64,000 nt of DNA from Prescottella defluvii (GTDB lineage Bacteria > Actinomycetota > Actinomycetes > Mycobacteriales > Mycobacteriaceae): the NCBI RefSeq assembly GCF_000738775.1, contig NZ_JPOC01000037.1:1-64000 (forward strand). Reading direction: 5' to 3'. The notes beneath the pieces are model-generated. The model was not told where the DNA came from. It saw nothing but the letters and a program-made list of their open reading frames with translations, and searched no databases. This document shows, in pieces, positions 43,398 to 48,363 of this stretch. How positions within the stretch are numbered: the stretch's first letter is position 1; every line of letters starts with the position of its first letter. Position numbers and translations under genes: made by a program.

Positions 43398-45035
43398 TTG
43401 ACCACCATTGCCGAACTCCTGCTCCGTCGAGCCCACGACGACGGTGTCGCCCTGTACGAGGGCGAGCAGGCGTGGACGTACCGCGAGTTCGTCGGACTGT
43501 GCGCCGCGCGCGCCGCCTACCTGCTCGACCGACGACGACCCGGCCCGTTCCACGTCGGCGTGCTACTCGACAACCGTGTCGACTTTCCGCTGTGGATCGG
43601 GGCCTGTGCGCTCGCCGGTGCAACGTTCGTGGGCCTCAACGGAACACGTCGAGGTCGGGACCTTGCCCGGGACGTCGAGCACAGCGATTGTCAGATCGTG
43701 ATCACCGAAGGCCGATACGTCGAGGAACTGAGCGCACTCGACGACAGCCGGTGCGGCGATCGTGTTCTCGACGTGGACACCAGCCACCACGACGACGCAC
43801 TCGCTCCTTATCTCGGCGTCGCGGCCCCGCAGGTTGACGTTCGGCCCGGCGACACTGCGATGCTCATCTTCACCTCGGGGTCGACCAGCGCCCCGAAGGC
43901 GTGCATCTGCTCGCACCGCCGGCTCGTCGGGACGGCGGAGGCCGTCGCGTCGTACTTCGGTCACTCGCGGGAGACAGTGAGTCTGGTGAGCATGCCGTGG
44001 TTCCACACGGCGGCGATCGTGCAGGGCTGGCTACCGGCACTGTCCGTCGGCGCGGCGTCCGTGATCGCGAAGTTCTCGGTGTCGCAGTTCTTTCCGACCG
44101 TCGAGAAGTTCGGTGTCACGCACTTCAACTACGTCGGGAAGCCCCTCGCGTACCTCCTCACCGCTCCGGCCACACCCCGCGACCGTTCGACGACGCTGCG
44201 CATGGTGATGGGCAACGAGGCGGCGCCGGGTGACGTCGAGGAGTTCGCTGCTCGGTACGACTGCACTGTCGTCGACGGATACGGTTCGACCGAGGGCGGC
44301 ATTACCTTCGCGCGAACACCCGACGCACCCGCGGGCAGCCTCGGGATGCCGGCATCCGACGGAATCAAGATCTTGAACGCCGAGACCTTGTCGGAGTGTC
44401 CGCGCGCGGAGATCGATGCGAACGGTGTGTTGTCGAACCCCAACGAGGCGATCGGCGAACTCGTGAACACTGAGGGTGCAGCGGGATTCGAGGGCTACTG
44501 GAACAATCCGGAGGCCTCGGAGAAGCGGGTGCGACACGGAATCCTGTGGACCGGCGACCTCGCCTACCGGGACACCCGAGGTTTCTTCTGGTTCGCGGGA
44601 CGGGACGACAACTGGATTCGGGTCGACGGTGAGAACATCGCGTCCACCCAGATCGAGGACGCGATCGGCCGGCACCCCGATATCGCGCTCGTCGGGGCGT
44701 ACCCCGTTCCCGACGACACCGTGGGGGACCGGGTGATGGTGGCAGTCCAGCTGCGACCGGACGCCGTGTTCGACGCCGGTGCCTTCGACACCTTCCTGCG
44801 TACGCTGGACGACTTCTCGCCGAAGTGGCTCCCGAGCTTCGTCCGGATCTGCGACCGGATCCCGACGACCGCGACCACCAAGGTGCTCCGGCGCCGGCTG
44901 CGCTCCGAACGGTGGCGGACCGAGGACCCGGTTTGGTGGCGTCCCGAGCGGCAGGGTCCCCTGGAGGCAATGACCCCGACGGTGATCGATGAGTACGAGC
45001 GGTCCCTGGAACCGAGAGCGCTCGAGGGCATCTGA
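43398..45035 (+). CDS. Acyl-CoA ligase, FadD17-like (ANL superfamily)
   Basis: A 545-residue adenylate-forming ligase. Motifs: FTSGSTSAPKACICSH (P-loop), GYGSTEGG, WTGDLAYRD and GRDDNWIRVDGENI. The usual C-terminal catalytic lysine region reads TTATTKVLRRRL. The overall pattern (GNEAAPGDVEEF, SMPWFHTAA) resembles the FadD17 subgroup that activates steroid side-chain acids in mycobacteria, as far as I remember. The TTG start at 43398 follows an AGAAGG site. Co-transcribed with the P450. Confidence 0.84.
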   Translation: MTTIAELLLRRAHDDGVALYEGEQAWTYREFVGLCAARAAYLLDRRRPGPFHVGVLLDNRVDFPLWIGACALAGATFVGLNGTRRGRDLARDVEHSDCQIVITEGRYVEELSALDDSRCGDRVLDVDTSHHDDALAPYLGVAAPQVDVRPGDTAMLIFTSGSTSAPKACICSHRRLVGTAEAVASYFGHSRETVSLVSMPWFHTAAIVQGWLPALSVGAASVIAKFSVSQFFPTVEKFGVTHFNYVGKPLAYLLTAPATPRDRSTTLRMVMGNEAAPGDVEEFAARYDCTVVDGYGSTEGGITFARTPDAPAGSLGMPASDGIKILNAETLSECPRAEIDANGVLSNPNEAIGELVNTEGAAGFEGYWNNPEASEKRVRHGILWTGDLAYRDTRGFFWFAGRDDNWIRVDGENIASTQIEDAIGRHPDIALVGAYPVPDDTVGDRVMVAVQLRPDAVFDAGAFDTFLRTLDDFSPKWLPSFVRICDRIPTTATTKVLRRRLRSERWRTEDPVWWRPERQGPLEAMTPTVIDEYERSLEPRALEGI

Positions 45036-45110: not shown

Positions 45111-47594
45111 CTAGCCGAGGAGGCGCTCGTTGTAGGCCGCGGCGCGATCCTCGAGCTGAACGACTCGCGCGGCCGGGGTGACCCGGGTGATGCCGGCGGG
45201 GAGTGCCGAATCGAGATCGGCGATGTCGACCAACCGAGCCGAGCGAACCGTCCGGGACAGGTCGACGTCCGAGGGGACGGACTGCCAGCGGATCGCGTAC
45301 ATGCCACTGTCGATACCGCTGGTGTCCAACCAGTTCCAGGTACCGGGATCCTCGGCGGAGACGACATAGGTGATCGTGCCGTCCGCGTCGGGTCGGGCCT
45401 GCGCCTGATTGAGGCTGCCCGATCGATCGACGTACTCACGCGCGACGCCCCACGGATCGGTCAGCTCGAACCCGAGGTACCGGGCGCCGACCGGATCGAG
45501 TGTGACCACGAGCGCCTGCTTCGGGCCAAGGGCGAAGTGTCCGCTCGTCGCGAACCCGAAACCGGACCCGCGTGGCGCCGTCGGAGCCTGGACGTCGTTG
45601 GGCGCCTTCGTGTAGATGAAGGTGTTGTCCCAGTCGAGCCAGTACCGGCCGATCGTGCGAAGGAGATCGGCGGTCTGCGTCGCCAGTTGCTCGCGACTGC
45701 GGGGTGCGGGCGCGTCAGGTCCGGCCGTGCGGTCGATCTCCAGATGCGACGGTCGTTCTCCCGCCCAGTTGTTCAGCGAGTCGCGCGCAATGAGGAGCCG
45801 AGCGGCAGCCGTGGTGCGAATGTGGTTCGGGCGGCCGTCGGCGGGCTCTGGGTCGACGGTGATCGTGAACGATCCGTCGGGATCGATCTGCATACGATCC
45901 GAGGTGAGGGACGCCAGGACCGGGGCGCCTTCTTTCGTCACCGCCCCGGTGCCGGGAAGCTCGCCGTAGAGGACGAAGGACAATTGGGCCGGCCGCCGTT
46001 CCGGCATGCGTCCCCGAATCACGAAGGTCGACTCTCCGTCGACGGCAGCGTGCCGATGTACGTTGTCGGGGTTGTCGATTCCGTAGCCCGAACGGTCCAC
46101 GTCGAGGCCGTGCCAGCAGTGGGGAGCCGTGACGACCCAGTTGAAGTGTGGTGCCGAGGAGTCGTCGGTGACCACGGTCTGGGCCGCTGCCGCCGCAATG
46201 GAGTCGACCGCTGCGTGAAGAGTGTCTCGTCCGGCTCGGGTGGCACCCTGGGGATCTGCACGGTACATCGCCGCGACGTCGGCCTTCGCTGCGCGCACCA
46301 GTGGGTCCGCCGCGACCGCCGCAACAGTCTTCTCGAAATCCAGCTGGGCTGGGGAGTCGAGGGCGCCGCCGGGGGCGAAGGCGCGATCGCAGTCGCCGTC
46401 GGAGCTACCCCCGGAAAGGCTCCCGGTCGGGGAGGACCCCAGTGGGCCTGCGGCGACAGGCACAGCGCGCTTGGCGATGTTGTCCTGAACTTCGGCTCGC
46501 CACTTGCTGTTCGGTGCGGTGGTGTCGATCTCGAACTCGTACCGGTTGATCATCTCGGGGCGAACGTCCACCGCATCGACGTAGAACTGTTCGTACCAGC
46601 GTCGCAGCTGGTACACCGGACCGTCCTCCTCGCACAGGAGCGGATTGTCGATGCGGGCCTTGTTCTTCCAGATCACGACGTCCTGTTCGAACCCGAGGCG
46701 CACGAAGTCGCCGATCTTCCGGGCGAGGGCGGCGGACTCGGCGTCGTCTCGGCCCGGGAACTTCTTGACGATGACGCCGTACTGCAGCTCGAACGAGTTG
46801 GCGTCGATCGGGTAGTGGCAGTTGATCAGCACGATCGGCAGGTCTGCCTCGTCGTAGTGGTACACGAGGTCGTCGATCATGAAGGACGGCCCGTGGTACG
46901 CCGCGACTGAGGTGTTTCCGCGGGAGACCGGAACTCCCGGAACGGGTTTGCGGGGGGCGACATCCTCGCGTCCGACACCGGTCATGAACTGTGTCGCGGT
47001 GTGGCCTTCGAAGATCGTCTTGAAATACGTCGGGAAGGCGAGATGAATGTAGAAGAAGTGGGCCATGTCGACGACGTTGTCGATGACTTCACGGCAATTG
47101 ACGCCCTCGATCGTCGTCGAATACCAGATCCAGTCGGTGTATTCGGGGTCGCCGTAGCCGGCGATACGCGGAATCGTCACGTCCGCGGGTGGCGGGTTGC
47201 CCTCGGGGTCGTTCCAGACGAACAGCAGTCCGTCCTGCACCATCGTCGGCCACGTGGTGGTACGGGCGAGCGGCGGGACACGGCGCGCGTACGGGATGTT
47301 CTTGCAGCGCCCGTCGCCGCCCCACCGCCAATCGTGGAACGGGCAGGCGATCTCGTTCCCCTTGACGGTTCCCTGCGAGAGGTCGCCGCCCATGTGCCGG
47401 CAGTACGCGTCGAGCACGTTGATGCGCTGGTCCTGCCCGGCGAAGACGACGAGCTTCCGGCCGAATGCGTTGATCTGATGCGGATTTCCGTCGAGGAACG
47501 TGCGTTCCAGGCCCAGGCAATGCCATCCGCGCGCGAACCGTCTCGGTGGCGCTTGGGCGGTGATCTCGCGGACCGGCGCGTCGTTGTCGTTCAT
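45111..47594 (-). CDS. KshA-like Rieske oxygenase fused to a DUF1214-like domain
   Basis: An 827-residue protein with two halves. Residues 1-375 match the oxygenase of 3-ketosteroid 9-alpha-hydroxylase almost block for block: the Rieske ligands are Cys65, His67, Cys84 and His87, and the mononuclear iron ligands His179, His184 (DMAHFFYIH) and Asp305 (FEQDVVIWKNK). LLCEEDGPVYQLRRWYEQFY near 320-340 is also KshA-like. A Gly/Ser linker (about 376-415) leads to residues 416-827, which resemble DUF1214 proteins (DRMQIDPDGSFTITV, then LLIARDSLNNWAGERPSHLEI, and a C-terminal MYAIRWQ). Plain KshA is about 390 residues, so this is an unusual fusion. A KshB-type reductase is not nearby. ATG 47594 has GGAG upstream. 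Confidence 0.87.
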   Translation of the reverse strand: MNDNDAPVREITAQAPPRRFARGWHCLGLERTFLDGNPHQINAFGRKLVVFAGQDQRINVLDAYCRHMGGDLSQGTVKGNEIACPFHDWRWGGDGRCKNIPYARRVPPLARTTTWPTMVQDGLLFVWNDPEGNPPPADVTIPRIAGYGDPEYTDWIWYSTTIEGVNCREVIDNVVDMAHFFYIHLAFPTYFKTIFEGHTATQFMTGVGREDVAPRKPVPGVPVSRGNTSVAAYHGPSFMIDDLVYHYDEADLPIVLINCHYPIDANSFELQYGVIVKKFPGRDDAESAALARKIGDFVRLGFEQDVVIWKNKARIDNPLLCEEDGPVYQLRRWYEQFYVDAVDVRPEMINRYEFEIDTTAPNSKWRAEVQDNIAKRAVPVAAGPLGSSPTGSLSGGSSDGDCDRAFAPGGALDSPAQLDFEKTVAAVAADPLVRAAKADVAAMYRADPQGATRAGRDTLHAAVDSIAAAAAQTVVTDDSSAPHFNWVVTAPHCWHGLDVDRSGYGIDNPDNVHRHAAVDGESTFVIRGRMPERRPAQLSFVLYGELPGTGAVTKEGAPVLASLTSDRMQIDPDGSFTITVDPEPADGRPNHIRTTAAARLLIARDSLNNWAGERPSHLEIDRTAGPDAPAPRSREQLATQTADLLRTIGRYWLDWDNTFIYTKAPNDVQAPTAPRGSGFGFATSGHFALGPKQALVVTLDPVGARYLGFELTDPWGVAREYVDRSGSLNQAQARPDADGTITYVVSAEDPGTWNWLDTSGIDSGMYAIRWQSVPSDVDLSRTVRSARLVDIADLDSALPAGITRVTPAARVVQLEDRAAAYNERLLG

Positions 47595-47781: not shown

Positions 47782-48363
47782 GTGAATGAAGCGCAGGCGG
47801 CCGACAAGGCCTGGGGCAGAGACGAAGTGCGCAGAACCGTGCGGATGGCTGCGCGCAAGTTGCTCGCCGAGAAGGGGCTGTCCTTCAGTATGCGTGAACT
47901 CGCCGCCGATGCCGGTGTCAACCTCGGCCTGATCCACAAGCACGTCGGCAACAAGGACGATGTCGTGCGGGCGGTGCTCGCGCGCAGTCACGAGAAGTCG
48001 GCGGCGATCGTCGAGTCCGTGGATTCGCTCCCGGAGGCGGTACGCGCGTTGTTCATGGTCGGAGTCGCCGATCCCGAGTACGTGCGGATCGTGGCGTGGC
48101 TGAATCTGCACGGTCGTTCGGATCTGATTCCGAACGAGGACATGGACGCACTCGAGGCGGTCACCCGGAGATCGCCGGTTTCCGTCGATGATCGGGTCCG
48201 GAAGATGGCCGTGCTCGCCGCGATCTCCGGGTGGTCGCTGTTCGGGAGCGGAATCCTGCAGGCGTCGGAGATACCCGACGACGAACGCGAGCAGTACGAG
48301 GCCCGGATCGCGGATCTGCTGGCGGCCATCGTGAAGGGGGTCGGCTCGGGAACGGAGGCCTGA
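47782..48363 (+). CDS. TetR-family regulator
   Basis: A 193-residue repressor: VRRTVRMAARKLLAEKGLSF, then SMRELAADAGVNLGLIHKHVGNKDDVV. GTG 47782 is preceded by AAGGG. It is divergent from the Rieske-DUF1214 gene and is its most likely controller, with candidate operators at 47623-47649 and 47758-47771. Confidence 0.85.
   Translation: MNEAQAADKAWGRDEVRRTVRMAARKLLAEKGLSFSMRELAADAGVNLGLIHKHVGNKDDVVRAVLARSHEKSAAIVESVDSLPEAVRALFMVGVADPEYVRIVAWLNLHGRSDLIPNEDMDALEAVTRRSPVSVDDRVRKMAVLAAISGWSLFGSGILQASEIPDDEREQYEARIADLLAAIVKGVGSGTEA

Follow-up and report, generated by a model that had tools for sequence, protein, structure and literature searches.

The window analysed here, a 64,000-nucleotide stretch of DNA, contains a reading frame in which a 3-ketosteroid 9alpha-hydroxylase-type oxygenase subunit (KshA) is joined to a protein of the DUF1214 type. 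The question raised by this locus is whether the joined gene encodes an established two-domain enzyme or is a young merger of two neighbouring genes. The initial annotation had described an uninterrupted frame of 827 codons. The ORF list upheld this description, with an ATG start and a frame open throughout, but placed the gene on the minus strand; when the same coordinates (45111-47594) are read on the plus strand there is a stop inside. Neither a stop nor a frameshift was found between residues 375 and 415 of the window frame. In addition, a whole-genome search of the source genome returned a single full-length match to the fused gene with 0 internal stops. The fused frame is confirmed as real, and because homology spans both halves its architecture is not a product of chance. 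None of the NCBIfam models scored over its own cut-off for the 827-residue protein, the best being 4beta-methylsterol monooxygenase with 52.8 of the 600 bits needed.

Features of the fused gene and its neighbours in the window
Feature	Coordinates	Strand	Evidence
Fused CDS, 827 aa, KshA + mature DUF1214-type protein	45111..47594	-	ORF list; full-length match without internal stop
KshA half, residues 1-380, 3-ketosteroid 9alpha-hydroxylase-type oxygenase subunit	46455..47594	-	Pfam; PDB 4qdf/4qdc/2zyl; 93-95% identity to separate congener kshA (3); tree
Rieske [2Fe-2S] domain, residues 24-107	47274..47525	-	PF00355 E 3.6e-20; C65 H67 C84 H87
KshA_C catalytic domain, residues 126-338	46581..47219	-	PF19298 E 2.9e-86; H179 H184 D305
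Linker, residues 378-411, pLDDT <50	46362..46463	-	Full-length structure model
Deletion junction, A381/A382	46449..46454	-	DNA alignment with relatives; 159/166/173 bp vs L037/L117/L118
Mature part of DUF1214-type protein, residues 382-827	45114..46451	-	
Pfam DUF1214 stretch, residues 517-596	45807..46046	-	Pfam
Acyl-CoA ligase, nearest model steroid-22-oyl-CoA synthetase CasI	43398..45035	+	557 bits, under cut-off 900
Cytochrome P450	42122..43351	+	
Divergent TetR-family regulator beside fused gene	47782..48363	+	Also by locus in G003, G004, G006, G010 (83-90% identity)

The first half proved to be a complete KshA-type oxygenase with all of its iron ligands, as had been proposed; Pfam, the PDB search and the alignment agreed on this point. 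The best match in the PDB sequence search was 4qdf (E 2.9e-176), and when this half was compared with the Rieske proteins in the PDB the top three were KshA sequences (4qdf, 4qdc and 2zyl; E 1e-147 or lower), with the next Rieske protein at E 1.3e-16. KshA is therefore the closest of the Rieske oxygenases. The Rieske residues C65, H67, C84 and H87, the mononuclear iron residues H179, H184 and D305 and the bridging D176, which we take to be the ligand and bridging positions on the basis of KshA structures, were identical in 33/33 rows of the KshA alignment, the window counted. These residues form the C-x-H and C-x2-H Rieske ligand pattern and the 2-His-1-Asp iron site. The assignment agrees with the two-Cys two-His Rieske site and the two-His one-Asp iron site described for KshA in a review (PMC4064121). 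The one departure was in length, as the usual KshA is a chain of ~390 residues with no further domain and the window protein has 827 residues. The source genome contains 8 further long KshA-like matches besides the fused gene. So many matches in one genome are a lot, yet not out of keeping with this group, the same review giving seven kshA homologues for R. equi (PMC4064121).

The second half was also found to be complete, as the initial annotation had held, with a Pfam match that was marginal. The DUF1214 score was 25.6 bits in the whole protein and 27.5 bits in the half alone, against a cut-off of 25, and the PDB sequence search recovered the uncharacterised protein 6ans (E 1.3e-22, residues 501-788). 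Residues ~382-827 make up an entire DUF1214-type protein with the 6ans fold, including the layout of a helical N-terminal part followed by two beta-rich bodies. Pfam lists DUF1214 as a family of unknown function. The full-length structure model consisted of two folded bodies and a disordered joint of ~34 residues (pLDDT <50), and its pTM of 0.56 suggests that the halves would have no fixed mutual contact. Several separate DUF1214-like matches occur elsewhere in the source genome, among them three tandem DUF1214-like stretches (25-42% identity) at positions 4278-9708 of L123 (G000:C22).

The view that the gene encodes an established multidomain enzyme was not supported by comparison with relatives. 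Fourteen genomes of the genus, the source genome counted, were searched at E 1e-30. Both halves were present at the locus in 4 of the 14, namely the source genome, G004 (Rhodococcus hoagii AcN21-7, locus L037), G006 (locus L117) and G010 (Prescottella sp. R16, locus L118). In all three of the other genomes the halves are two adjacent genes, an arrangement that the initial annotation had itself regarded as incompatible with its reading. The separate genes are 93-95% identical to the window in KshA and 84-88% identical in DUF1214, and the distance from the KshA stop to the DUF1214 start is 75 bases in L037, 67 in L117 and 71 in L118. In L037 the two genes share a reading frame, with two stops between them. 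The 38,480-base plasmid record of R16 (L125, NZ_CP130944.1) annotates the pair as separate coding sequences, one of 388 residues and one of 473.

Two further observations concern these relatives. The R16 record (L125, 1-38480) contains two oppositely oriented copies of the kshA-DUF1214 region, which is also found in the chromosome (G010 434000-453500). The record may be a fold-back assembly product instead of a true plasmid; one of the three DUF1214 copies of this genome is broken, with 2 TGA codons and fragments in the annotation. In G003, DUF1214 and TetR genes occupy the locus with no kshA between them (L120 8949-11163), meaning that kshA was lost here or had not yet arrived.

Alignment of the DNA identified what separates the fused from the unfused arrangement. 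The window is shorter than L037 by 159 bp, than G006 by 166 bp and than G010 by 173 bp. We set the junction by eye between A381 and A382, with an uncertainty of ~15 bases on the KshA side. Within the missing stretch lie the last KshA residues (1 relative to L037, 6 to G006 and 7 to G010), the stop codon, the intergenic bases and the DUF1214 leader. This leader follows the pattern M-x-(V/I)-(R/H)-R-R-(I/F)-L-x-A-G-L-M-A-x-A-V-T-V-L-L-P-x-M-S-G-A in the locus genes of four congeners, G003 without kshA counted; a charged start is followed by a hydrophobic core, and S-G-A precedes G-P-L. The best 16-residue hydropathy was 1.85-2.11 in the leaders versus 0.93 in residues 360-440 of the window. Thus, by eye and by hydropathy, a signal-peptide-like leader is present in the four congeners and absent from the window. 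Signal-peptidase sites follow the -3/-1 rule, under which S-G-A is a likely cleavage site. The window picks up at A-G-P-L, with the end of the deletion almost exactly at this predicted site. The fused protein would consist of KshA and the mature part of its neighbour, which the leader prediction marks as normally exported.

These results also bear on two other proposals for the joint. A Gly/Ser linker had been described, and a Gly/Ser-rich linker is indeed present, but most of it is the low-complexity start of the mature neighbour protein. The idea that the second domain evolved for delivery of substrate to KshA finds no backing in the relatives, where the leader would place the protein outside the cytoplasm. 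Leader-less DUF1214 genes do occur elsewhere in congener genomes (G004:C4, 67%; G009, 61%), showing that a DUF1214 domain can live in the cytoplasm.

To establish the direction of change we used a KshA tree of 38 rows, including 7 of the 8 other KshA genes of the source genome. The four Prescottella KshA sequences formed one clade (100/100), in which the window paired with the unfused gene of R. hoagii (99/87). Because the window KshA nests in this clade beside an unfused gene, the fusion is the derived state and, from this position, postdates the divergence from R. hoagii AcN21-7. An ancestral fusion that was later split in the relatives is contradicted by the tree, by the leader in four congeners and by the stop-gap-start arrangement in three. 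The Prescottella clade itself falls among Nocardioidaceae (9-row group, 100/98), well separated from the other seven source-genome KshA genes in the tree; the window kshA (46455-47594) was perhaps acquired by horizontal transfer from Nocardioides-like bacteria.

We also compared substitution patterns. For KshA, dN/dS was 0.07-0.09 in pairs containing the window and 0.05-0.07 in other pairs, while for the DUF1214 half the values were 0.11-0.18 and 0.12-0.17. The window had 8 unique substitutions in KshA as against 4, 6 and 4 in the other sequences, three of them near the end of the window KshA (349, 352 and 363), and 11 in the DUF1214 half as against 9, 13, 18 and 14. The fused gene carries no clear sign of decay, although a young fusion would be expected to show none. 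Separately, dS of the DUF1214 half was 0.47 between G003 and G004 and 0.75 between the window and G004, and dS of the KshA half was 0.34 for the latter pair; this contrast among G003 (L120), G004 (L037) and the window may be a trace of recombination within the DUF1214 gene.

The fusion was the only one that we encountered. At the family level this type of DUF1214 protein was found in 12/251 genomes, the source genome counted (E <= 1e-60): one is fused (the window), three adjoin kshA, one lies at the locus without kshA, and seven had no KshA in the 15-20 kb stretches examined. There was no second fused frame in the 14 genus genomes (E 1e-30) or in the plasmid collection, nor among the 80 top-ranked contig stretches from a candidate set of at least 592. 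The same was true of 251 family genomes (DUF1214 half, E 1e-60), 397 order genomes (E 1e-60) and 296 phylum genomes (whole protein, E 1e-165; DUF1214 half, E 1e-25), in searches with strict thresholds that scored 3 to 7 of the candidates per genome and that distant fusions would escape. Literature on DUF1214, and on DUF1214 with ketosteroid, yielded no enzyme of this architecture, and within that literature the earlier remark that no described Rieske plus DUF1214 enzyme was known is correct. A second case of linkage between KshA and DUF1214 genes was observed in Nocardioides sp. Root140 (L041, 5413-9110), in which a KshA gene (75%) and a DUF1214 gene (46%) run in opposite directions ~1.4 kb apart. 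In L114, L107 and L068 an unfused DUF1214-like stretch (27-32%) lies 1.4-5.3 kb from KshA.

In addition to the genes given in the table, the neighbourhood of the fused gene includes an IclR regulator, an SDR, an aldehyde dehydrogenase and a PQQ_2-type beta-propeller protein in which we recognised a leader by eye. The locus could plausibly act on a steroid or sterol-like compound, and our working guess is that the DUF1214 protein binds a ligand in the cell envelope as part of this catabolic locus. A TetR gene also accompanies DUF1214 genes in places that have no kshA, being adjacent in G243 (TetR 51%, DUF1214 46%) and ~3 kb away in G185 (TetR 56%).

The analysis establishes the domains, their encoding by separate genes in relatives, the stretch that the window lacks and the direction of change. 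From these data we consider it likely that the gene is a lineage-specific young fusion produced by deletion, in which KshA is still a KshB-dependent enzyme, with the DUF1214 half carried along as a displaced passenger. In this lineage, ~160-175 bp would have been deleted between the same-strand neighbours kshA and the gene for the exported DUF1214 protein, a single deletion being the simplest reading. The event would have removed the last KshA codons with the stop, together with the leader and the intergenic region that carries the ribosome-binding site, while leaving the frame open. As a result, the mature part of the neighbour would hang off the KshA C-terminus on a flexible linker, and since the signal peptide is gone the fused protein would stay in the cytoplasm. 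Judging from its sequence, the KshA part should keep its trimer, accept electrons from KshB and hydroxylate a 3-ketosteroid-like substrate. The DUF1214 part presumably folds and does no work at the cell surface, so that the exported function would be lost from this copy. Separate production of the DUF1214 half from an internal start is unlikely, because the start region of the relatives is missing in the window.

Other readings were weighed against this one. We think it unlikely that the fusion marks early gene loss, with a dispensable kshA-DUF1214 pair for which fusion is one of several routes of decay. The 8 further KshA-like matches in the source genome would fit such dispensability, as would G003 and the broken DUF1214 copy in G010; however, G003 may equally show a state before kshA, and the broken copy is on a record that is possibly a fold-back assembly. 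Moreover, the window copy contains no stop, frameshift or lost ligand, and dN/dS is low in both halves.

The intact halves and low dN/dS would also suit a functional two-domain enzyme, in which a cytoplasmic DUF1214 half binds steroid, a conjugate or a partner and the tether aids catalysis or alters the substrate range. The same-order neighbours in three congeners, the linkage in Nocardioides sp. Root140 and the existence of leader-less relatives point in this direction. Nevertheless, we judge such an enzyme quite improbable. The closest DUF1214 genes, in four congeners, carry the leader, which implies that the partners would normally be in different compartments. Furthermore, G003 and 7/12 family genomes have DUF1214 without KshA at the locus or in the examined 15-20 kb, respectively, no second fused case appeared among the candidates scored, and the pTM suggests no fixed contact of the halves. 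Equally improbable is the idea that a beta-rich protein, once secreted, now serves KshA in the cytoplasm as a tethered arm for binding substrate or conjugate, its signal peptide having been excised near the cleavage site by one deletion. The near-exact end at the predicted cleavage site, with frames and folds kept, could alternatively reflect selection for a useful fusion. Finally, it is scarcely credible that the draft assembly (265 contigs, in a comparison with one genome per species) dropped ~160 bases between two real genes, since the longest exact word common to the flanks is <6 (L037), 7 (L117) and 7 (L118) bases, a repeat search found no repeat joining the two ends, the stretch is not bracketed by direct repeats of the kind that normally make an assembly collapse, and the frame is open with no other fault across 827 codons within a 72-kb contig.

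If the fusion arose by chance, this locus provides a clean example of neighbouring bacterial genes merging, with an exported protein drawn into the cell, and it cautions against taking a long frame in one genome as a new enzyme. If instead the fusion is functional, it would suggest that DUF1214-type proteins take part in steroid degradation, which is directly testable, and should KshA have captured a binding arm, this would be a natural and very young case of a domain switching cell compartment through gene fusion.

Compared with known systems, the window protein resembles KshA (4qdf, 4qdc and 2zyl) in that residues 5-378 align with 4qdf and the iron ligands and bridging Asp are kept; the KshA chains among the PDB matches have 386-394 residues, whereas the window protein adds ~445 after the KshA part. 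Its second half is 22-23% identical to 6ans from Burkholderia cenocepacia, an uncharacterised protein that differs in being an unfused 390-residue chain, and 10-12% identical to the Vibrio proteins VPA0735, which we take to be a DUF1254/DUF1214 protein, and VPA0106 (2p3y, 3vb9 and 3u07). The nearest counterparts are the separate genes of L037, R16 (L125, G010) and G006, which have the same order, strand and divergent TetR gene. L037 also has the same ligase-to-ALDH stretch, its gene order being that of the window from TetR to ALDH. In G006 and G010 an alpha/beta hydrolase gene follows the DUF1214 gene, and in G003 one likewise takes the place held by the ligase in the window. The fused gene differs from its counterparts in L037, G006 and G010 in that these have a stop and 67-75 bases between the two genes, and the DUF1214 gene has a leader of its own.
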